Of a DNA stretch of 63,880 nt, positions 40,668 through 62,153 are shown piece by piece. A program made the position numbers and the translations under genes. Source of the DNA: Acidobacteriota bacterium (GTDB lineage: Bacteria; Acidobacteriota; UBA6911); NCBI GenBank assembly GCA_031271905.1, contig JAISUT010000034.1, positions 1-63,880 of the forward strand, in the 5' to 3' direction. The first letter of the stretch is position 1, and each line of letters begins with the position of its first letter. The notes under the pieces were generated by a model. That model was not told where the DNA came from and did no database searches. It was given only the letters and a program-made list of their open reading frames with translations.

Positions 40668-40868
40668 CCCGCCCGCCCCCCCGCCCCCCCCGGCCGCTGA
40701 CGACGATCTGGCGCGAACAGCCCGCGAACAGGCTGATTCCACTTGTGCAAACCTCCGCGACATGGAAAAGTATTTGTTTTTCGACGGAAGGCGAACCGGC
40801 GCAGACCGGATTTGACCGAGGGGCGAGGGGACGCGGCAGACGCGTCCGGGAGGGGCGGCGAAACGAAC

Positions 40869-42068
40869 ATGGCGACCATATTGAGGCACACGCTGGAATG
40901 GCTGTTCCTAGTCCCCGTCATCGGCGGCTCGGTCTACGCGCTCCTGTGCCTGTGGGCGGTCTTGCGCTTCCGCTTGCAGGCGCGGGCGCGCAAAGCCGCA
41001 AACGCCGCCGCCGGCGCAGACGCCGCGCCCTGGCCGCCGGTCACGATCCTGAAGCCGATATGCGGCATGGAGAAACGGCAGGAGGAGAACCTGCGCAGCG
41101 CCTGCACGCAGGACTATCCCGACTACCAAGTCGTCTTCTCCGTGCAGTCGGACGGCGATCCGGCGCTCCCCCTGCTGCGCAAGCTGCGGCAGGAGTTCGG
41201 CGACGACCGCGTCTCCGTAGCCGTGGAGAGCTTCCGCACGGGGACTAACGGCAAGGTCAACAACATGATCGGCGGCCTGCGCCACGCGCGCCACGACGTG
41301 CTGGTCATCAGCGACAGCGACGTCCTGCTCAAGCCCGACTACCTGAAGGCCATCGTCGCGCCCCTGGACGACCCCGGCGTCGGTTGCGCCTGCACCTTCT
41401 ACAAGGCCGCCCACGCGGACGCCTGGTACGAGAAGGTCGAGCTGCTGACCCTGAACGCCGACTTCATCACCAACGTCCTTTTCGCCCACGCCAGCGGCGC
41501 GTCGAAGTTCTGCCTCGGCGCCTCGGCCGCCATCCGCCGCTCGACGCTGGAGGAGATCGGCGGGCTGGAGGGGTTGTCCGACTACCTGGTGGAGGACTAC
41601 GAGATGGGGCGGCGCGTCTGGGAGCATGGCAAGAAGGTGGTCACCGTCCCCTATTTCGTCGACACGGTCGTGGACTTGAAAAGCCCCTCCGCTTGGTGGA
41701 ACCACCAGGTCTACTGGGATCAGAACACCCGTGCCGCCCGCCCCTACGCCTTCCTCTCCACCGCGCTCATCCGCTCGGTGCCGTTCGCGTTCCTCTTCGC
41801 CGCCTTGCGGCTCGCCGACCCGGCGGGCCTCGCCGTCCTGGGCGGGGCGATGGCGTTGCGCCTCCTGACGGCGGCGGGCGTGCTGGGCTGGGGCTTGCGC
41901 GACCGCGAGGGGTTGCGCGCGCTCTGGCTGCTCCCCTTCCGCGACCTGTCCTCGCTCGGGACCTGGCTGCTGGCGTTCACCCGGAGGACCACCGTCTGGC
42001 GCGGCGCGAGCTTCGTCCTGACCAAGGACGGGCGGCTCGTGGACACGGAACGCGAGCCGGTCTTGTGA
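40869..42068 (+). CDS. hpnI: HpnI-like glycosyltransferase (GT21/ceramide glucosyltransferase type)
   Basis: A membrane glycosyltransferase of 399 residues. HpnI in hopanoid producers adds N-acetylglucosamine to bacteriohopanetetrol. An N-terminal membrane anchor is followed by VTILKPICGMEKRQEENL and FSVQSDGDPA. The metal site is in ISDSDVLLKPDYL, and the acceptor region is LVEDYEMGRRVWEHG with HQVYWDQNTR after it. Two or three C-terminal membrane helices end the protein. Start ATG 40869 has a GGGAGGGG site. It is followed 2 bases later by hpnK, so the two act together. Confidence 0.82.
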   Translation: MATILRHTLEWLFLVPVIGGSVYALLCLWAVLRFRLQARARKAANAAAGADAAPWPPVTILKPICGMEKRQEENLRSACTQDYPDYQVVFSVQSDGDPALPLLRKLRQEFGDDRVSVAVESFRTGTNGKVNNMIGGLRHARHDVLVISDSDVLLKPDYLKAIVAPLDDPGVGCACTFYKAAHADAWYEKVELLTLNADFITNVLFAHASGASKFCLGASAAIRRSTLEEIGGLEGLSDYLVEDYEMGRRVWEHGKKVVTVPYFVDTVVDLKSPSAWWNHQVYWDQNTRAARPYAFLSTALIRSVPFAFLFAALRLADPAGLAVLGGAMALRLLTAAGVLGWGLRDREGLRALWLLPFRDLSSLGTWLLAFTRRTTVWRGASFVLTKDGRLVDTEREPVL

Positions 42069-42070
42069 CG

Positions 42071-42955
42071 ATGGCGGACTTAGGGCGCGCCCCCGCGCGG
42101 GGTTCTAAAAAAGTCATCGTCACCGGCGACGACTTCGGGCTGGCGGCGGCGGTGAACGAGGCCGTCGTCCTCGCACACGCGGGCGGCATCCTGACCTCCG
42201 CCAGCCTCATGACCGGCGCGGGGCATTGCGCCGACGCGGTGGAGAAGGCGCGCAGGCACCCGACCCTGCGCGTGGGGTTGCACCTGACGCTGGTGGAGGG
42301 GCGCCCGGTCTCGCCGCCCGGCGAGGTGCCGGACCTGGTGGACGCCGGCGGCGAGTTCTCCACGCGGTTGGTGCGCTCCGGATTCCGCTTCTTCTTCCTC
42401 CCCGGCGTGCGCCGCCAGCTCGAACGGGAGATACGCGCCCAGTTCGAGGCGTTCGCGCGCACGGGCCTCGCCCTCGACCACGCCGACGCGCACAACCACA
42501 TGCACCTGCACCCCACGGTGCTCGGCCTGATGCTGGACGTGGGGCGGGAATACGGGCTGCCGGCGGTGCGCCTGCCCAAGGAGCCTCCCGTGCGCTCTTG
42601 GCGGGCGGCGGGCGGGAGCCTGGCGCCGCGCCTAGCCTCGGCGGCGTTCCTCGCCCCGTGGACGTTCCTGATGAAGCGGCGGCTCGGGCAGGCCGGCGTC
42701 AAATGCAACGACCACCTTTTCGGCATGTCCACCAGCGGCGCGATGACCGAGGGGACGTTGCAAAGGATATTGCGGAACCTCCCCGACGGGGTCACGGAGC
42801 TGTGCTGCCACCCCGCCACGCGGCGGTCGCCGGAGACGGATCGCACGATGCCCGCCTACCGCCACGAGGAGGAGTTCCAGGCGCTCACCGGCGACGCGTT
42901 GCGCCGGACTTTGCGGGAGGTCGGAGCCGACGCCGTCGCCTTCGGCGACCTGTGA
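42071..42955 (+). CDS. hpnK: HpnK-like YdjC-family deacetylase
   Basis: A soluble carbohydrate deacetylase of 294 residues in the YdjC/ChbG family. In hopanoid synthesis HpnK removes the acetyl group left by HpnI. The metal-binding Asp pair is in VTGDDFGLAAAVNEAV, and DHADAHNHMHLHP gives the His residues. ELCCHPATRR matches the C-terminal block. It begins 2 bases after the hpnI stop. The third enzyme of the known cyclitol-ether route, radical SAM HpnJ, is not in the window. Confidence 0.82.
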   Translation: MADLGRAPARGSKKVIVTGDDFGLAAAVNEAVVLAHAGGILTSASLMTGAGHCADAVEKARRHPTLRVGLHLTLVEGRPVSPPGEVPDLVDAGGEFSTRLVRSGFRFFFLPGVRRQLEREIRAQFEAFARTGLALDHADAHNHMHLHPTVLGLMLDVGREYGLPAVRLPKEPPVRSWRAAGGSLAPRLASAAFLAPWTFLMKRRLGQAGVKCNDHLFGMSTSGAMTEGTLQRILRNLPDGVTELCCHPATRRSPETDRTMPAYRHEEEFQALTGDALRRTLREVGADAVAFGDL

Positions 42956-43001: not shown

Positions 43002-43385
43002 ATGCTACGAGTCGTCATCGCCATGGTCATCGCCACCGGCGCGGCAGCCCTCGGACAGATACTGGTCAGCAAGGGGATGAAGGAGGTGGGGAGCTTGGAG
43101 ACCTACGCGCCGCTGGCGCTGGCGTCCTATTTCTGGCACGCCTTGTGCAACCCCTACGTCATCGGCGGCACCATCCTGAACGCCGTGTTCTACTTCCTGT
43201 TCCTCGCGGCGCTGTCGTGGACAAACGTCACGGTGGCGTTGCCCATGACCGCCATCGAGTACGGCTTCGCGGCGGTGCTGGCGGTGCTGATCCTGAAAGA
43301 GGGCGTGCCCCCGGTGCGCTGGATGGGCATAGCGATGGTCATCGTCGGGGTGATCCTCATCGCCAGGGGCGGAGGGGACGACTAG
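43002..43385 (+). CDS. small EamA/DMT-type membrane transporter
   Basis: A 127-residue inner-membrane protein with four helices, the size of SMR-like or half-EamA proteins. The segment TNVTVALPMTAIEYGFAAVLAVLI and the terminal GIAMVIVGVILIARG are typical. A very good ribosome site (AAAGGAGGCAACAG) precedes it, 46 bases after hpnK. By analogy with ArnE/ArnF, which flip a lipid-linked aminosugar, it could move the HpnI/HpnK product or its lipid. That role is inference from context. Confidence 0.75.
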   Translation: MLRVVIAMVIATGAAALGQILVSKGMKEVGSLETYAPLALASYFWHALCNPYVIGGTILNAVFYFLFLAALSWTNVTVALPMTAIEYGFAAVLAVLILKEGVPPVRWMGIAMVIVGVILIARGGGDD

Positions 43386-43455: not shown

Positions 43456-46400
43456 TCACGATGCGGAGGAGAACACCTCCACGCGCGGGAGGTAGACCAC
43501 GAAGACGTTGCCCTTCTTCGGGTCGTTGGTGGTCGCCAACCAGCCTCCCAGCCGGTCCACCGCCGAGCGGACGGAGGCGTTCCGCCGTTCGGGTTGCGCC
43601 GCGACCCCGTCGATGCCGAAGCTGGCGCGCACATAGGTCCCCGAGGGCAGGTCCGGGGGCTCGTCCTCGCCACCGCCCGCCGTCTCCACGTTGGCGGTCT
43701 CGATGGTGAGTATCCCGCCGAGCGGCAGCGACTCCCGCGCCGAGGTCATGATGTTGCCGACCAGTTGGATCGCCTCGCTCCGTTCGGCGGCGATCCACCC
43801 CAACTGCGGCTCCAGCGCCATTTGCAGGTCGATGTCCTCTCCCGTCAGGTTGTGCAGCAACGCGCCGTTGTCCGTGATGACCTCGTTGAAGTTCAGCAAC
43901 GAGGGGGTTTTCTCGGTCTTATGCGACGCGGAGATGAAGCGGTTCGCGTACTTGATGCCGCGGCTCGCCTTGAGCCTGATCGCCTCCGCCAGCCTCTTCA
44001 CCTCGTTGTCCCCGGCGGTCGCCAGCAACTGCTCCGAGGATTGAGTCAAGGAGGCGCACAGGTCTTGGAAGCTCTGGATGGTGGCGAGCGCCAGGTCCCC
44101 GGCCGATTCCAGCTTGCGCATGTGCCGGATCTCCTCGCCGCGCAAGTGCGACTGCGAGATGTCCATAAGGATGCGCTCCACGACCGGCTCGCCACCGCCC
44201 GCCTGCGGCACCAGCGTGGCGTACTCCTGTATCTGGATCAACCTGCCGTCGGCGGCCTGGAAGGTCCAGCCGACGCCTTCGAGCTTCCCCTCCTCCTCCA
44301 GCCGCCTGCCGAGCGACCCGGTGAAGGCGTAGAGCCGGAAGCGCTCCTTGCCGGTCCGGCCGAGCGCATCCTCGGCACCCTCGTAACCGAACATCCGCGC
44401 GGCGATGTCGTTGCACTCGATGACGAAGCCGTTGCGGTCCGCCAACGCCATCCCGACGGCGGTGTACTGCGACAGGCGCTGGCAGCGCAGGTTGCCCGCC
44501 ACGGAGACGGCGGCGGTGCTCTCGGCCTCGGCCTGCTCCCGCTCCAGTTCCGCGCGCGCCGCCTCGGCGGCGTCGTATTTGCGCGACAGCTCCTCTATCC
44601 GCACCTTGGCGTCCTGGAGCTCGGCATGGAGGCTGGCGCGCATCCGCTCCGCCTCCTGGAGCCGCTGCTCCGCCTTCTTCTGCGCCGCCTCCAGATCGGA
44701 TATCTCCACCACGTACTTCTCGGTGAGCTGCGAGACGTTGTTCTCCGTGCTGCGCAAGGCGTCGGCGAGCGCCGAGTGCTGCTTTTCGATCGAGTCCTGC
44801 AACGCCGCCTGCACCGCGTTCTTCTGCGCCTCGGCAGCCTGCAACTTCAGCTCCAAGTCCCGCCGGGCCTTCAACTGCTCGCCCTTCTCGCCGTTGTACT
44901 TCTCGATCAGCTCCGCCAGGCGGCTCTCCGTGTCCTTGAGCGCGGCTTGCAGGGTCGCCCGCTGCTCGTCCACCGCGCGGTACTTGGACTCCAGCTCGGC
45001 GTCGGCGCCGTCCGCGTCGGAGGAGCGCCGGATGGAAAGCTCCGCCACGCGGTTCTCCGCGTCTTTCAAGGCTATCTGCGCGGCGAGGCGCTGCGCCTCG
45101 ACGTTGCGCACCTTCTCCTCCAGTTCGCGGATGGTCCGCCTCTGCTCGACGCGTTCCGTCTCGTACTTCTCCGCCAGCTTGCGCGCCTGCGCCCCGTCCA
45201 TCTGCGCCGCGCCCCCGTCCAACCGCTCCTGGAGCCGTCGCAACTCGTTGCCCAGCCCGTCGCGCTCCGCCTCCGCCTCGGCGCACTCCTCCTCGGCGGC
45301 CTTGCAACGCCGCTCCAGCTCCGCAAGGCGCTTCTCGTACTTCGCCTCGACGGCGGCGACGTCGTCGGGGCGCCGCTTCCGCGCGGAGTCCGCCCCGGTC
45401 AGCGAAGCCGCCAACGTGTTGCGCTCCTTCTCCACGGCGCGGAGCTTCCCCTCGAGCTCCCTCTTCTCCTCCGCCCATCCCCCGGCGTCCCCGCCGGCGG
45501 CGTCGGACATCGATTGCAGGATCTGCCCCCTGGCTTCGTCCAGCTCGCCTTGGAGCGCGAGCGCCTGCTCCTCGGCGGCCTGCGCCCGCCGCTCCAGCTC
45601 CACCCTGAGGGCCTCCCACTTCAGGCGCTCCGACTCCGACCCCTTGTCGGATTCGGCGCTCTCCAGCGCCTGCGCCAGGGAGTCGCGCTCCTCCTTCGCG
45701 GCGGAGAGCTTCTGCCCGTATTCCGCGTGCAGCTCCTCCTCCTTCTGCGCGAGCCTCGCCTCGGCCTGGTCCAGCGCCTCCTGGGAGATCGCCAACTGCT
45801 CGTCCCTCTCCTTCAGGCGCGACTCCAGCTCGCCCTTGGCCTGCTCGGCGGACTGCAGCCTCTCGCGCGCGGAGCGCAGCTCGGCGAGCTCGGCTTCGGA
45901 CGCGCGGGCCGGGCCTCCGTCCTGCTGCGCCAGCTCCAAGGCGCGGCACCGTTGGTCGGCGGCGGCGAACCGCTGCTGCAAATCCTTGAACTGCGCCTCG
46001 TATACTTTCAACGACTGCGTCAAGGCGTCGCACTTCTGCTGCAAATCCTCGTTCTTGCTGGGAGAGGCGACGACGCTGGAAGTCAGGTGGATGGTGGTGA
46101 GCACGCACGCCGCGCCGCCGGGGTCGCGCAACAACGGTGTCCCGCGCAACTCCAAAGAGGCGGAGGAGCCGTTCAGCCCCTTCCAGGCGATGCGGATGGA
46201 CGCGCCCGCCCAGCCGGTGACGGTCGAGAGGAACGCCAATATCTTCTCGCGCTCGTCCGGCGGCGCCAGTTGCAACAGGTTCTTCCCCGCCACCTGGTTG
46301 AGGTTGTTGGCGCCCAAGATGCGCAAGCCCGCCTGGTTGATCGCCAAGATGGTGCCGCTCGGCGCGATCTGCGCCACGCCCACCGGCAGCGATTCCACGA

Positions 46401-47310
46401 TCTGCCGCAGGCGGGAGCCGCGGGTCTTGAATATCTCCTTCTCCCGCGCCAGATCCCGCACCATGACCTCCTTCTCGATCACCGGGATCAGCTTCTGGAA
46501 GTAGTTCCCCGCCTTGACGACGCTGACCGCCGCCCCCGCGCGGGCTGCGCGCGTGGGGGTGTCCTCGTCCCCGACGCGGGTCAGGAGCACGACCGGGGTG
46601 TCGGGGGCCTTCAACAGGGCGCTTTTGACGGCGCCCAGGGTCTGCGCGCCCAACGCCTCGGCGTCGATGACCACCAAGTCCCCGGCGGGCGCGTCGCCGC
46701 GCTCGGGGAGGTTCAACGACCCGTCGGGGGACGTCTGCACCTGCGCCAAGACCAGGTTCTGGGTCTGGGCGACGTGCCCGCCCAGCTCCGAAGCCTCGTC
46801 GCCGACGTAAAGCACCCGGACTTTCCTGACCGGCTTGCCGACCGCGCCTGCGGCGGCCATAGCAGGGGCATGCGCCGAGGCCGCACCCACACTCGCGCCT
46901 GCGCCCGCGCCGGTTGGGGCAGGCGCGGCGGCGGCGGGGCGCGGCGCCTCGACCGCCTGTTGCAACGACTCCGCCAAGACGGCGCCGTAGCCGGGCCGCT
47001 TGGTGACGAACCGGTCGATGCCCAGGTCGTTCAACGCCCTGGGGATCTCCTTCGTGTCCGGCTCCAGCAGGAACAGGATGTGCGCGCGGCGGTTCACCTG
47101 CCTGGCGGCGTCCGTCAAGATGGAGCAATCGCCGCGGGACACGGAGCTGTCGAAGATGATCGCCCCGAAACCGCTCGACTCGTGCAACTCCTTCAGCGCG
47201 TCCTGGGTGTCGAACACCGTCTGGAGCTGCACGGTCGGCATGTTCTTGGTCAACTCGAAAGCGAGTATGGTCGCTTCACGGGAGTTGTTGCTAACAAATA
47301 GAATATTCAT
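43456..47310 (-). CDS. double receiver-PAS-coiled coil-PAS protein with degenerate histidine kinase core
   Basis: A cytoplasmic protein of 1,284 residues. A receiver-like domain (about 1-125) lacks the N-terminal acidic pair (ILFVSNNS). A second one (about 165-290) keeps GDE, VVIDAEAL and VVKAG. Then come PAS (about 300-420), roughly 500 residues of uninterrupted Ala/Glu/Lys/Gln heptads, and a second PAS (about 945-1055). The end resembles a NtrB-type kinase, but the phospho-acceptor His is missing: the usual AHDFNN position reads IQSFQD. The N-box Asn is Ser (TSARESLP) and G1 reads ASFGIDG. It is thus a likely pseudokinase scaffold. ATG 47310 follows AGGATATG. It is 110 bases after a PilZ gene. 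Confidence 0.85.
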   Translation of the reverse strand: MNILFVSNNSREATILAFELTKNMPTVQLQTVFDTQDALKELHESSGFGAIIFDSSVSRGDCSILTDAARQVNRRAHILFLLEPDTKEIPRALNDLGIDRFVTKRPGYGAVLAESLQQAVEAPRPAAAAPAPTGAGAGASVGAASAHAPAMAAAGAVGKPVRKVRVLYVGDEASELGGHVAQTQNLVLAQVQTSPDGSLNLPERGDAPAGDLVVIDAEALGAQTLGAVKSALLKAPDTPVVLLTRVGDEDTPTRAARAGAAVSVVKAGNYFQKLIPVIEKEVMVRDLAREKEIFKTRGSRLRQIVESLPVGVAQIAPSGTILAINQAGLRILGANNLNQVAGKNLLQLAPPDEREKILAFLSTVTGWAGASIRIAWKGLNGSSASLELRGTPLLRDPGGAACVLTTIHLTSSVVASPSKNEDLQQKCDALTQSLKVYEAQFKDLQQRFAAADQRCRALELAQQDGGPARASEAELAELRSARERLQSAEQAKGELESRLKERDEQLAISQEALDQAEARLAQKEEELHAEYGQKLSAAKEERDSLAQALESAESDKGSESERLKWEALRVELERRAQAAEEQALALQGELDEARGQILQSMSDAAGGDAGGWAEEKRELEGKLRAVEKERNTLAASLTGADSARKRRPDDVAAVEAKYEKRLAELERRCKAAEEECAEAEAERDGLGNELRRLQERLDGGAAQMDGAQARKLAEKYETERVEQRRTIRELEEKVRNVEAQRLAAQIALKDAENRVAELSIRRSSDADGADAELESKYRAVDEQRATLQAALKDTESRLAELIEKYNGEKGEQLKARRDLELKLQAAEAQKNAVQAALQDSIEKQHSALADALRSTENNVSQLTEKYVVEISDLEAAQKKAEQRLQEAERMRASLHAELQDAKVRIEELSRKYDAAEAARAELEREQAEAESTAAVSVAGNLRCQRLSQYTAVGMALADRNGFVIECNDIAARMFGYEGAEDALGRTGKERFRLYAFTGSLGRRLEEEGKLEGVGWTFQAADGRLIQIQEYATLVPQAGGGEPVVERILMDISQSHLRGEEIRHMRKLESAGDLALATIQSFQDLCASLTQSSEQLLATAGDNEVKRLAEAIRLKASRGIKYANRFISASHKTEKTPSLLNFNEVITDNGALLHNLTGEDIDLQMALEPQLGWIAAERSEAIQLVGNIMTSARESLPLGGILTIETANVETAGGGEDEPPDLPSGTYVRASFGIDGVAAQPERRNASVRSAVDRLGGWLATTNDPKKGNVFVVYLPRVEVFSSAS

Positions 47311-47420
47311 CATATCCTGCTTAGATTCGGTTGCCGCAAGCATATTGACCCAACCCCTCGATGCCACATGATTGGAGACCTGTTGAGAACCGCGGTCTCC
47401 CGCCAGACCCTATATCGACC

Positions 47421-48278
47421 CTACCAGTCGTTCAATGCGTCGTTGGCGTCAAAAGAAACCCCGAAGCCGTCCGGCGCGAGGACGTTGAACACAAGCGCGT
47501 CCTCGTGCTTCATCGCCGGGCCGAGCTCCTCGTCCTCGGAGCGCCCCGTCGAGGCGTGGGCGGCGGTTTCGAAAATATCGGGGGTTTCAAACACGGGCGG
47601 CGGCGCGGGCGGCGCCCACGACGTCGGCGCCTCCTGCCGCGACGGTGACGCGACGGTCTGCTTGGGCTCCGTCACAGCCCTGTCGTTACCCCCCATGGCC
47701 ACGGTCAACGCCGCAGCCACATCCAACTCCGCCTCCTCCACAGGTCTCACTTCCACAGCCTTCTCCACTTTGTCGGTTGTCGCCATCGCCGCCGCAGGGG
47801 CGGGCGCATCCAGCTTCGGCGCCGCAGCCGCCACCGGGGCGGGCGCCACAGTCTCCGCCTCCGCCTCCGCGCCCTCGTCCGCGGCGACGTCGATGGCGGC
47901 CTCCTCGGCGGCGTCGGCGTCGGCGTCGGAGGCGGTCGCAGCGGGCGGCTCAAGGTCGTCCAACATGGTCAAAGGATTCTCGAAAACGATTGCAGACTGG
48001 TAGATGGGGGTTCCCTGCAAGGACTTGATGGAAGACCGGAGCACGGAGCCGGTGATCCTGAAAGTCCCCTGGGTCGTGATCACCTTGAACACGATCTTCA
48101 TCTGCGGCCGCAGTCGGACATCCGTTTCTATCAAGGCGCCGCCACGGGAGATGTCGACGACATGCGCCTCGTTCCCCTGGTTGAGCGTGATCCCTTTCAA
48201 GAAAGGGATGTTTTCAGGATTGAGCCGGGGCCATTGCCGTCTGGCTACCGCATCGGAATCATCTTTCGTCTTTTTCAT
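47421..48278 (-). CDS. PilZ domain c-di-GMP receptor with acidic Ala-rich tail
   Basis: A 285-residue cytoplasmic protein. The N-terminal ~105 residues are a PilZ domain with both c-di-GMP motifs: RxxxR in RRQWPRLN and D-x-S-x-x-G in VVDISRGGALIET. Residues ~110-240 are a low-complexity Asp/Ala/Glu/Pro linker. The last ~45 residues (RSEDEELGPAMKHEDALVF to the end) look structured and acidic, perhaps a docking tail. It precedes the pseudokinase gene on the same strand by 110 bases, so the two are probably one operon and may bind each other. No other domain is recognised. Confidence 0.9.
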   Translation of the reverse strand: MKKTKDDSDAVARRQWPRLNPENIPFLKGITLNQGNEAHVVDISRGGALIETDVRLRPQMKIVFKVITTQGTFRITGSVLRSSIKSLQGTPIYQSAIVFENPLTMLDDLEPPAATASDADADAAEEAAIDVAADEGAEAEAETVAPAPVAAAAPKLDAPAPAAAMATTDKVEKAVEVRPVEEAELDVAAALTVAMGGNDRAVTEPKQTVASPSRQEAPTSWAPPAPPPVFETPDIFETAAHASTGRSEDEELGPAMKHEDALVFNVLAPDGFGVSFDANDALNDW

Positions 48279-52237: not shown

Positions 52238-53158
52238 TCAGGCGTACAGGTCGCGGGGGTCGTCCGGGGGGCGAGCCTTCCAGCGCTTGTGCCCCCAGAG
52301 CCACGCCTCGGGCTGCTCCCGGACGATGCGCTCCAGCACGCCGTTCAGGCGCAGGGTGTTGACGCGCAGGTCTTCGGCGGTGTCGCCGGTGCGCACCATG
52401 TCCACGGGCTCCAGGAATTTTATGGTGTAACGCCCCTTGCGCAGCGGCGTCAGGTACCCGGGCAGCACCGGCGCGCCGGTGCGCAGCGCCAGCAGCGCCA
52501 CGCCGGTGGAGGTCGCGGCGGGGACTCCGAAGAAATCGACGAACACCCCCTCGGACGGCCGGACGTTCTGATCCATCAGGACGCCGGTCGTGCGCCCCGC
52601 CTTCAGCTCCCGCAGGATGTGGCGCGCCGAATCCTTCTTGTAGACCACGGTGTTGCCCTTGGATTCGCGGACCGCGCGCAGGTACCGCTCCAGCCGCGCG
52701 TTGTCCAAAGGGCGCGTCGTGAAGCTCAGCGGGTGCCCGTGCAAGGCGTGCGCGGTCGGCAGCAGCTCCCACGAGCTGAAATGACCGGTCAGGTAGAGGA
52801 CGCCCTTCCCCTTGGAGAGGGCGGCGCGGTAGTTCCGCAAGCCGTCCACAGGGTCATAGTCCGCCAGACGGCCGATGTTCGCCGGCGTCAGCGAGGGCAG
52901 GCGGCTGACCTCCAAGAGGTTCATCCCCACGTTCTGGAAGCTCCGGCGCGCGACCTGGCGGCGGCGGCGCGGCGCCATCTCCGGGAAGGCGATCTTCAAG
53001 TTCACGTCGGCGATGCGGCGGTGCCTGCCGTCCAGGCAGTAAAACGCCGCCGCCAGGGCGCGGACGACCCAGACGCCGACCGGGCGCGGCACGACGCGGA
53101 AGAACGCGATCACCAGCCGCGCCAGCATGTACACGGGCAACGAATCCAACCTATCCAC
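52238..53158 (-). CDS. LpxL/HtrB-family lipid A acyltransferase
   Basis: A membrane-anchored late acyltransferase of 306 residues. One N-terminal hydrophobic segment is followed by a DVNLKIAFPEM block. The catalytic HX4E motif is TGHFSSWELLP near residue 125. MDQNVRPSEGVFVDFFG and VLPGYLTPLRKGRYTI match the family. It probably adds a secondary acyl chain to lipid A or a related lipid. It starts close to the divergent gene at 53220, and the ArnT-like gene follows on the same strand. Confidence 0.9.
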   Translation of the reverse strand: MDRLDSLPVYMLARLVIAFFRVVPRPVGVWVVRALAAAFYCLDGRHRRIADVNLKIAFPEMAPRRRRQVARRSFQNVGMNLLEVSRLPSLTPANIGRLADYDPVDGLRNYRAALSKGKGVLYLTGHFSSWELLPTAHALHGHPLSFTTRPLDNARLERYLRAVRESKGNTVVYKKDSARHILRELKAGRTTGVLMDQNVRPSEGVFVDFFGVPAATSTGVALLALRTGAPVLPGYLTPLRKGRYTIKFLEPVDMVRTGDTAEDLRVNTLRLNGVLERIVREQPEAWLWGHKRWKARPPDDPRDLYA

Positions 53159-53169
53159 CTCCCACGCCC

Positions 53170-53198
53170 CTTACGCCGCAAAGGAGACGTGCTATACT
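53170..53198 (+). promoter_or_regulatory. promoter of the exported unknown protein
   Basis: A TATACT -10 box (53193-53198) lies 22 bases before ATG 53220. The -35 near 53171-53176 (TTACGC) is weak. It is back-to-back with the acyltransferase start. Confidence 0.45.
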
Positions 53199-53219
53199 GT
53201 GCGTTCACGGAAACGCCGC

Positions 53220-53912
53220 ATGGAAATGAAGACACGAGACCGCATCCGCTTCGCAACCGCAACCGTCGCCCCGGCGCTCGCGCTGGCGCTCCTGCTCGCC
53301 GCCGCCGCGCCCGCATGGGCGCGCTACAAGGCCCCCGGCTGGGAGGCGGGCCCGAGGGAGGGCTATCCGGCGTCCCTGTCGAGCGAAGGGGTCACCATCG
53401 CCGTCGAGCCGCTTTACACGGACGAGCTCGCCGCGCGCGCCTTCGACAAGAAAGACCTGGTGACACGCGGGATTATGCCGTTCGGCGTGGTCATTTTCAA
53501 CGACAACGACTTCCCGGTCGAGGTGGACGGCCTCAGCATCGAGCTGATCCACAAGGAGCGGGGGGACGTCCACGTCAAGACGATGCCGCCGAGCGAGGTG
53601 GTGTGGCGCGTCTCCCGGCGCGACAAGACGTGGCGGACGCAACGGATCCCGCGCCTGGAGCCGGACGGGTTCGACAAGGACATGCTGGAGGACTTCGACG
53701 GCAAGTTCCTGATGGACGCGACCGCCCCCCCGCACGGCAAGGCGGGCGGGTTCCTCTACCTGCACCTGCCGCTGGGCGAAGCGCCGTCGGCGGAGGAGGT
53801 CGCCGCCTTCCTCTCCGGCGCGCTGCTGTACATCCCGAAAATCTACCGCCAAGACGACGGCAGCCGCATGATCTACTTCGAGGTGGACCTGGCGCCCGCC
53901 GTGAAAAGATAG
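53220..53912 (+). CDS. exported protein of unknown function
   Basis: I do not recognise a family. It has 230 residues with a clear Sec signal (about 13-38, ending PAWARY). The mature part is soluble, with a beta-rich segment LVTRGIMPFGVVIFNDNDFPVEVDG... seen in short pieces: GIMPFGVVIFNDND and FPVEVDGLSIEL. FGVVIFNDNDFPVEV resembles the strand pattern of immunoglobulin-like periplasmic domains. There are no membrane helices after the signal and no Cys pairs. ATG 53220 is chosen over upstream starts because those lie before the -10 box. It sits between lipid genes and hisS with no operon partner. Confidence 0.6.
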   Translation: MEMKTRDRIRFATATVAPALALALLLAAAAPAWARYKAPGWEAGPREGYPASLSSEGVTIAVEPLYTDELAARAFDKKDLVTRGIMPFGVVIFNDNDFPVEVDGLSIELIHKERGDVHVKTMPPSEVVWRVSRRDKTWRTQRIPRLEPDGFDKDMLEDFDGKFLMDATAPPHGKAGGFLYLHLPLGEAPSAEEVAAFLSGALLYIPKIYRQDDGSRMIYFEVDLAPAVKR

Positions 53913-58469: not shown

Positions 58470-61400
58470 ATGTTGAAAAAAACGAGTCTGAAAACCAAGC
58501 TGTTCTTCATCGTCGCGACGGTGGCGGCGCTGTCCTTCCTCGCGGTCTCGTGGATCGTCTCCACCCGCACCGCCGCCATGGCGCGGGAAGAGGCGTTCAG
58601 CCTCGCCCAGGAGACGGCGGACAAGTACAAGAACGAGATCAAGGCGGAGCTGCAAGGGGCGCGCATCACCGCCGAGACGCTGGCGACGGTTTTCGAGACG
58701 CTGAAAAGCCACGACCTGACCGACCGCGAGATGATGAACGACATCCTGCGGGGCGCATTGGCGAAAAAGGAGTACATAACCGCCTTCTGCATCGCCTACG
58801 ACCCGGACGCGCTGGACGGCAAGGACAAGGAGTTCGCGGGCGTGGCGCCCGCCTACGACGCCACCGGGCGCTACGCCCCCTACTGGAACAAGCTGGGGGA
58901 CGACATCGCGGTCGAGCCGCTGTACGACATCGACATCGCCGACTGGTACATCGTCCCCAAGAACGAGCGGCACGAGTACATCACCGACCCCTACCCGTAC
59001 CACGTCCAAGGGCGCGAGGTCATGCTGGCGAGCCTGATCTTCCCCATCGTCCACAAGGGCGACTTCATCGGCATCATCTCCTCGGACATCGTCCTGGACA
59101 AGTTGCAGGACATGGTCACGCGCGTGAACCCCCGCGACCAGGGGGGCTACACGGAGATATTCTCGAACGCCGGCGCCATCGTGGCGCACCCGGACAAGGC
59201 GCACCTCGGCAAAGACCTCGCCGAGTCGCTGGCGGTCGCGATGTTGCAGGGCGCCCCCGCCAGCGCCCCGGCGGCGTTACGACGCGCGCAAGGCTACCTG
59301 GAGGCGCACCCGCCCGGAGAGGGGGACGGCGAGGAGCAGGCGAAGCGGCGGCGCGGCATGGAGAAGTTCGTGAGGGAGCTGGAGGCGTATGCCGTCCGCG
59401 GCGGGCGGCTGCCCGACCTAGGGTTGCTGTCCCCCGAGATGGCGGCGGAGATGCTTCAGGCGGACCCCGCATTCCAGCGCCACGCGGCGGAGGCGAAGGC
59501 CGCCATCCGGAAGGGCGAGCAGTACGTCTTGAAAGGCGGCGACTTCTACACCGTCTACGTCCCCATCCGCTTCAGCGACGTCACCAACCCCTGGTCGGTG
59601 GCGGTCAGCATCCCTATGGACCGGGTGCTGGCAAACGCCGCCTCCATGCGCAACTTCGTACTGGCGGTGTCCGTCGTCGCGATAGGCGTCCTCGCCGTCA
59701 TCCTCTACCTGATCGCGGGGAACTTCACGCGCCCCATCCTCGGGCTGTCGCAAGCGGCCAGATCCATCGGCGAGGGGGACTTCGACGCGGAGATACCCGT
59801 CATCCGCAGCGACGACGAGATCGGCGCCCTGTCCAATGCGTTCCGCTTCATGGAGGAGAAGATCGACGCCCTCGTCCGCGAGTTGCAGGAGCGCGCCCGC
59901 GAGTTGGAGGAGAAGAACAGGAACCTGAACCGCCTGAGCGAGCTGAAGGACGAGTTCCTCGCCAACACGTCGCACGAGTTGCGCACGCCCATCAACGGCA
60001 TCATCGGCATCGCCGAGTCGATGGTGGACGGCGCGACCGGCCCCTTGACCGACGAGCAGAAATACAACCTCGCCATCGTCTCCAACAGCGGCAAGCGGCT
60101 GTCCAACATGATCAACGACATCCTGGACTTCACGAAGCTTAAAAACCAGGAGATCGCGCTGCAAATCAAGCCCGTCGACCTGAAGACCATCGTAGACACC
60201 GTCCTGATCCTGTCCAAGCCCCTGGTCAAGGGGAAGGATCTGCGGCTGTCGGACGAGATCGACGCCTCCCTGCCCGCCGCCAGCGCCGACGAGAACAGGA
60301 TGCAGCAGATATTGTACAACCTGGTCGGCAACGCCATAAAGTTCACCGAGAAGGGGGTGGTCTCCATCTCCGCCGAGGTGCGGGGCGGCTACGTCGCGGT
60401 CACGGTCGCAGACACCGGCATCGGCATCCCGGAGGGCGAGTTCGACAGGATATTCGAATCCTTCGCGCAGGTTGACGGCTCCACCGCGCGGGAATACGGC
60501 GGCACGGGGCTTGGGCTCTCGATCACCAAGAAGCTCGTCGAGCTGCACGGCGGACAGATCCGCGTCGAGTCCCGGCAGGGCGCGGGATCCCGCTTCACCT
60601 TCACGGTCCCGGTGGCGCAGGCGCAAGCGGCGCCGGCGGACGGCGCGGCGGCGCAGACGGTCCTGGACATCGAGGACTACGCCCAAGGCGCCGGCGCTGG
60701 CGGTGCGGTCGCCGCCCCCCCCGGCGCCCCCAGGATATTGGTGGTCGATGACGAGCCGATAAACATCCAGGTGCTGAAGAACCTCCTTTCGATACGCGAC
60801 TATTCCGTGACCACGGCGTACAACGGCGCCGAGGCGCTGGATCTGTTCGCCCAAGGGGCGGAGTTCGACATCATCCTGCTCGACGTCATGATGCCCAAGA
60901 TGTCGGGGTACGAGGTCTGCCGCCGACTGCGCGAGGACTATTCCCTGTTCGAGCTGCCCATCCTGATGCTCACGGCGAAGAACCAGGTGCAAGACGTCGT
61001 GCTGGGCTTCCAGTCCGGCGCGAACGACTACGTGCAAAAGCCCTTCGACAAGGACGAGCTGCTGGCGCGCGTGCGGACGCTGCTCTCGCTGCGCAAGGCG
61101 GTGAGCGACGCCATCGAGACCGAGAAGCAGTTCGAGAACGAGAAGCAGAAGCGGATGTTCGAGGAGACCCTGCGTGAGGTCACCCGGGCGATAACATCGA
61201 CGCTCGACCTGAAGGAGGTCTTGGAGAAGATATTGGAGGCGATGTCGCAATTCATAGACTTCGACAAGTCGGCGGTGCTCCTGAGCGAAGGCGACAACTT
61301 CGTCGTCAAGTCGAACAACGGCTTCGGCGCCTCCCGCGTCGCGGAAGGGATGCCCGTTGACGTCGTCCGCGACAAGTTCGTCAACAAGATCACCCTGACC

Positions 61401-62153
61401 AGGGAGGCGGTCATCAGCAACGACCTCGACACCTGTTTCAGGGAGGACGCCCCGGCGGGGGGCGACGGCGGCGGCGTGCTGGCGGGCATCCCCGTGATCT
61501 ACCGGGACGACCTGCTGGGGGTCATCGTCATGAGCTGCCGCGACAAGGCGGTCTCCAAAGAGCTGCTGTTCACGCTGGCGGGGCAGGCGGGGGTCGCCAT
61601 CCAGAACGCGCGCCTGTTCGAGAAGATCAACACGATGGCGACGCGGGACGGCCTGACGGGGCTGTACAACCGCCGCTACTTCTTCGAGCTGGCGGAGATG
61701 GAGTTCGCCCGCTACAAACGCTACGGCTCGCCGCTGTCGGTACTCATGATGGACATCGACCACTTCAAGGGCATCAACGACAAGTACGGCCACGCCATCG
61801 GCGACCGGGTGCTGACGCATCTGGCGCGGAAGCTGGACACGCTGCTCCGGGAAAGCGACATCGTCGGCAGGTACGGCGGCGAGGAGTTCGCGGTGCTGCT
61901 GCCGGAGACGCAGCCGGATGTCGCGAGCGTCATCGCCGAGCGCATACGGAAAGCCATCGAGGACGACGTGGTGTGGACGGACGGCTTCGGGGTGGTCCGG
62001 TACACCCTGAGCATCGGCGTCGGGGCGTTCGCCCGGGAGTCCGAATCGGTCGCCGAAGTCTTCAACGCCGCCGACAAGCGGCTGTACGAGGCGAAGGAGG
62101 CGGGGCGCAACCGGGTGATGGTGCAAGAGGCCGCCGACGGGATGCGGGCGTAA
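58470..62153 (+). CDS. membrane hybrid histidine kinase/diguanylate cyclase (dCache-HAMP-HisKA-HATPase-REC-GAF-GGDEF)
   Basis: A 1,227-residue inner-membrane sensor. Two membrane helices (about 12-31 and 392-415) enclose a periplasmic dCache-like domain containing the [10 protein letters not shown]-type fold (read as DIADWYIVP). This domain carries a ~90-residue charged insert (about 255-345). HAMP follows, then HisKA with His502 in [13 protein letters not shown]. HATPase has [19 protein letters not shown] and [13 protein letters not shown]. The receiver has Asp805 in [18 protein letters not shown]-like domain (about 900-1050) and a GGDEF end the protein, with GGEEF at 1136-1140 and I-site RESD five residues before it. 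All catalytic residues look intact. It likely couples phosphorelay to c-di-GMP synthesis in one chain. Confidence 0.93.

Follow-up and report, generated by a model that had tools for sequence, protein, structure and literature searches.

A conserved gene pair of a tailed PilZ protein and a predicted pseudo-histidine kinase in Acidobacteriota as a candidate c-di-GMP relay

PilZ adaptors acting on signalling partners are already known from the pairs HapZ-SagS and MapZ-CheR1 (PMC10912698, PMC12564702), in which contact with the partner is enhanced by c-di-GMP (PMC10912698). Besides, DivL provides a precedent for a histidine kinase fold that has been turned into a sensor (PMC4211667). HisKA domains without the phospho-acceptor His represent about 0.9% of those sampled, and receivers are called pseudo-receivers when one of their five active-site residues is missing (PMC12632262). 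A literature search retrieved no work joining PilZ, pseudokinase, histidine kinase and coiled coil, and no case of a PilZ protein that has a dedicated tail and is paired with one fixed pseudokinase. Judged by title and abstract, the literature on PilZ, Acidobacteria and c-di-GMP contains no report concerning such a PilZ-pseudokinase system, and c-di-GMP receptors appear little studied in this phylum as far as the search shows.

The window, the whole stretch of 63,880 nucleotides analyzed here, originates from a member of the Acidobacteriota and carries a PilZ gene followed by a large gene (Table 1). Both open reading frames are real and lie adjacent on the minus strand, as proposed in the initial annotation; an artefact of overlapping high-GC reading frames was rejected, since homologues settle the strand. 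The large reading frame as listed is counted from a GTG. Because its orthologues begin with M-N-[VIL]-, the equivalent methionine being residue 20, and a ribosome-binding-like AGGAT stands just 5' of that position, the true start is most likely 47310 and not the GTG, which leaves a gap of 110 bases between the two genes. The encoded protein is organized as REC-REC-PAS-coiled coil-PAS-DHp/CA. Pfam recognizes PAS in two stretches (E 3.6e-16) and a receiver below threshold only, and residues 941-1249 match the PAS-DHp-CA part of CckA in NCBIfam (E 4.9e-20), a match far below the equivalog cut-off. The two receiver-like domains, the two PAS domains and the long coiled coil of the initial annotation are all retained.

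Table 1. Coordinates of the two genes and their domains in the window.
Feature	Position	Strand	Basis
PilZ protein gene, 285 aa	47421..48278	(-)	ORF, Pfam PilZ, orthologues
PilZ domain with RxxxR (R14-R18) and DxSxxG (D42-G47)	47964..48242	(-)	Pfam; motifs
Variable Ala/Pro/Asp/Glu-rich linker of the PilZ protein	47499..47963	(-)	Sequence
Conserved C-terminal PilZ tail, about 25 residues, ending N-D-W	47424..47498	(-)	14/14 paired orthologues end N-x-W
Large pseudokinase gene (predicted)	43456..47310	(-)	Probable start = residue 20 of the 1303-residue ORF 43456-47367
REC1, pseudo-receiver by sequence (Asp73 kept, acidic pair lost)	46948..47310	(-)	AlphaFold2, Foldseek, residues
REC2, pseudo-receiver by sequence (Asp235 kept)	46468..46833	(-)	Sub-threshold Pfam match; profile against solved receivers
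PAS1	46078..46413	(-)	Pfam
Coiled-coil region, about 510 residues	44527..46065	(-)	Charged, Pro/Gly-poor, weak SMC-like matches
PAS2	44143..44478	(-)	NCBIfam sensory_box, 965-1074
DHp-like segment, phospho-acceptor His replaced by Gln1098 (44074-44076)	43798..44142	(-)	Sequence comparison
CA-like segment without F box and G2 box; N-box Asn = Ser1209	43459..43797	(-)	Sequence comparison

The N-terminal profile of the large protein matches many solved receivers. REC1 adopts a receiver fold in the AlphaFold2 model (pLDDT about 76-89 per block), which resembles solved single receivers with TM values of 0.7-0.79 in Foldseek, while the models of REC2 and PAS1 are less confident. The first acidic active-site residue is missing from REC1 and REC2 in all aligned rows with letters there, so that both domains, as judged by their residues, are pseudo-receivers according to the definition given above (PMC12632262). 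REC2 keeps the phospho-Asp throughout the aligned rows; in REC1, G050 alone lacks it among the rows with letters at that position. The orthologue of G006 has no REC2.

Among solved kinases, the C-terminal profile matches CckA and DivL (E 4.3e-20), yet the catalytic elements have gone. The phospho-acceptor site reads QSFQD in the window versus HDFNN in active relatives, the G1 box is degenerate, and a stretch of about 20 residues that would contain the F and G2 boxes is absent, and with it the ATP lid. His and lid are lost in all orthologue ends read (G003-G008, G012, G050, G060 and G087), the ends of the G014, G078 and G090 orthologues being unreadable at contig ends or masked bases; the shorter pseudokinases of G075, G087 and G097 show the same losses. 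The His-site residue itself varies between Q, T, K, R, A, D and P. The initial annotation had described the loss of both the His and the N-box Asn. Indeed, no orthologue with an intact His was seen among the ends read; the Asn, however, is retained in G004, G005 and G006, and its loss was therefore rejected as a family trait. Judged by its sequence, the kinase end is dead, a predicted pseudo-histidine kinase. LP-x-GG and similar features are still conserved, which argues for selection on the fold, and recent gene decay was rejected because the losses are common to several families and the reading frames are long and open. The derived state is probably the pseudokinase, as G042 and G272 encode REC-REC kinases whose motifs are intact.

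The PilZ match exceeds the curated Pfam cut-off (E 5.3e-5; 23.9 bits against 22.5). Both c-di-GMP motifs, RxxxR and [DN]xSxxG, were correctly recognized before and are intact in the paired PilZ orthologues, from which the domain is predicted to bind c-di-GMP. The region behind it had been described as an acidic tail. It is acidic, with 38 D+E versus 9 K+R in the last 180 residues of the protein, but it is in fact a linker of very different length among orthologues, followed by a conserved C-terminal motif in which a strand-like LTV or similar leads by a short run to the terminal N-[DNKS]-W. All 14 paired PilZ proteins carry this N-x-W tail at their C-terminus. It is absent from about 25 other PilZ reading frames in six of the pair-bearing genomes, and weaker PilZ matches across the phylum have no such tail, with one exception ending PPGW.

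Some genomes depart from the common arrangement. A lone second PilZ protein with an LNDW tail and no adjoining large gene is found in G007 (L111:4604-5101(+)), and in G075 a tailed PilZ protein precedes a seeming large-gene remnant and a metallophosphoesterase-like gene (L179:4870-6900). In G002 the PilZ reading frame lacks the tail at its stop and runs into a gene resembling those of penicillin-binding proteins; no large gene was detected in this genome, which is only 76% complete. G299 encodes a REC-PAS-coil protein ending in its own PilZ domain (L101:1246-3084(+), the same as L112:5626-7464(+)), which by its domain content is a natural fusion of both halves of the system, and which adjoins a divergent two-PilZ gene ending AEW.

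Orthologues of the large gene with the receiver-PAS head occur in 14 genomes from four families: the window, G003-G008 of the same genus, G012 and G014 of a second genus of the same family, G050 and G060, G078 and G090, and G087. In 14/14 the next gene upstream is the PilZ gene, on the same strand, at 12-179 bases from the large reading frame in the 13 genomes other than the window, and is never missing beside the large gene. The conserved co-occurrence anticipated by the initial annotation thus holds, and the pairing is far beyond chance. The trees of both proteins agree in grouping G004, G005 and G006, these with the window, the genus, and G050 with G060, with mixed support. Because most of the 396 genomes sampled from the phylum lack a strong match, the distribution of the pair is scattered, wide but thin. 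N-terminal profile matches in G272, G042, G402 and G358 were rejected as orthologues, the kinase ends that were read (G272, G042 and G358) being intact; no PilZ match was present in the stretches read.

The coil, which in the window spans about residues 435-947 and is highly charged, varies. The total length of the large protein reaches 1618-1763 residues in G005, G012 and G060, and the coil of G005 is partly a tandem array of a 96-base unit (7.4 copies, 93% identity; L034:6266-6976). Similar repeats may be the cause of several metagenome-assembled contigs ending inside the large gene. Coil-less pseudokinases of 486 and 478 residues directly follow a PilZ gene in G087 (L085:1663-4267) and G097 (L183:5036-7003), the long version being present in the same genomes or family. 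The long coil is thus not the invariant part. Since its length varies and coil-less versions exist, the more constant parts are the PilZ, receiver-like and pseudokinase parts, and the coil looks like a spacer.

The flanking genes vary between genomes, with neither a conserved motility neighbour nor a partner gene linked to the pair. In the window, a family 21 glycosyltransferase and a YdjC-like protein (40743-42955 (+)) are followed by an EamA-type small membrane protein (43002-43385), which together look like a lipid glycosylation set. A 261-residue reading frame (53127-53912 (+)) matches nothing in Pfam at E 0.001. The gene at 58470-62153 (+), some 10 kb away from the pair, encodes a 1227-residue sensor that combines Cache, HAMP, HisKA, HATPase, receiver, GAF and GGDEF domains and looks like an active hybrid kinase and diguanylate cyclase.

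We propose, with a probability of roughly 0.6, that the pair is a two-gene c-di-GMP relay without phosphotransfer, in which the PilZ protein docks with its tail on a pseudokinase hub that catalyses nothing. The PilZ domain would bind c-di-GMP, in line with its intact motifs. The conserved N-x-W peptide, carried on a flexible linker, would tether PilZ to the large protein, and c-di-GMP would alter this contact; linkage, conservation of the tail and co-loss point to this step. The large protein would phosphorylate nothing. Instead, it would serve as a hub, either allosteric or tethering, that binds other signalling proteins through its receiver-like, PAS and DHp/CA-like surfaces and passes the signal on by shape or by gathering partners, with the coil as an adjustable spacer or oligomeriser. 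Here, the lack of catalysis is supported by sequence, and we infer its consequence. The downstream partner most likely belongs to the two-component proteins. As the genome encodes about 15 GGDEF domains, the host makes c-di-GMP. In support of this relay stand the linkage in 14/14 genomes of four families, the agreement of the trees on well-supported groups, the loss of His and lid, the specificity of the tail, the tailless PilZ of G002 with no detected large gene, the REC-PAS-coil-PilZ fusion of G299 and these GGDEF domains. The lone LNDW-tailed PilZ of G007 and the tailed PilZ beside a seeming large-gene remnant in G075 count against it, as do the incomplete G002 genome and the fact that we infer the contact between PilZ and the large protein from genomes. 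Moreover, because the AlphaFold model of PilZ, built from three alignment rows, is unusable, the tail could have its function within the PilZ protein.

The relay has a special case with a specific target, in which the DHp/CA-like end would bind and switch an active kinase of the CckA type, or that kinase's response regulator, in a DivL-like manner, its state being set by PilZ and c-di-GMP. The profile match to both solved CckA and DivL, the active relatives of the same kinase type in the genome and the precedent of DivL itself are consistent with such a trans-regulator; the variable flanks and the lack of a linked partner gene speak against it, and we regard it as a tentative option only. Any residual ATP binding or unusual kinase activity of the same end is very improbable, given that His and ATP lid are absent in all ends read and G1 is degenerate, even if the N-box Asn of G004, G005 and G006 would fit it.

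The initial annotation had favored a c-di-GMP-controlled polar or filament scaffold and pointed to the motility scaffolds FrzS and AglZ. In such a surface motility scaffold, the coil would organize a cluster and c-di-GMP would control type IV pili. Control by c-di-GMP is probable and is kept in the relay, but the motility scaffold is unlikely: PAS and kinase-like ends are not reported for FrzS-like proteins, no motility gene adjoins the pair, and the versions in G087 and G097 do without the coil, against which stand the combination of pseudo-receiver and long coil and the PilB/PilT-type ATPases in the genome. A part in motility is possible with such pilus-type ATPases present, yet nothing found points to it. 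It is equally doubtful that the genes are merely co-transcribed, with a tail that binds a different partner or packs against the domain of its own protein. The lone tailed PilZ of G007 would suit this explanation. Linkage in 14/14 genomes, agreeing trees, tail specificity and G002, which has neither a tail nor a detected large gene, speak against it.

We hold even odds on the wider claim that the relay constitutes an undescribed Acidobacteriota module, in which a tail-docked PilZ adaptor lets c-di-GMP control a large non-catalytic two-component fossil, composed of pseudo-receivers and a pseudokinase, as a hub. If true, it would offer a route from a second messenger into a two-component fold without phosphotransfer. 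Usually a PilZ adaptor stands by itself and screening is needed to find its partner, whereas in the present case the partner is suggested by genome linkage and the way in which both meet by a short peptide at the C-terminus. With its fixed pseudokinase partner, the pair would allow a direct test of c-di-GMP steering a two-component fold without phosphorylation.

A kinship to FrzS and AglZ of Myxococcus, as once suggested, is not supported beyond general architecture and was rejected. To our knowledge, these proteins have no PilZ partner gene, no PAS domain and no kinase-like end, and their layout of pseudo-receiver and long coil differs from that of the large protein, which has PAS and DHp/CA-like parts. 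In them, a pseudo-receiver (PMC1974792 for the FrzS receiver) precedes a long coiled coil, similar to the large protein, but the FrzS receiver is without the phospho-Asp that is mostly kept in REC1 and REC2. The CckA-type hybrid kinases with two front receivers in G042 and G272 share the REC-REC-PAS-DHp/CA arrangement with related receivers and kinase end; unlike in the pseudokinase, their His, N, G1, F and G2 boxes are intact, and no PilZ match was present in the stretches read. DivL of the Caulobacter CckA pathway likewise combines PAS with a degenerate CckA-type DHp/CA, the kinase fold serving as an interface without phosphotransfer (PMC4211667). However, DivL has a Tyr at the site (PMC4211667) and an ATP lid, while here the residue varies, no end read has either Tyr or lid, and pseudo-receivers and a long coil stand in front, with a PilZ partner gene. 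Similar to HapZ-SagS and MapZ-CheR1 of Pseudomonas, the PilZ protein would work via a protein partner, in one of those cases a histidine kinase; their partners are active enzymes, whereas here the gene pair itself supplies a predicted pseudokinase as partner, and a dedicated C-terminal tail is part of the PilZ protein. PilZ adaptors and pseudo-histidine kinases are thus both known kinds, of which the pair, with its fixed pseudokinase and PilZ tail, would be a variant.
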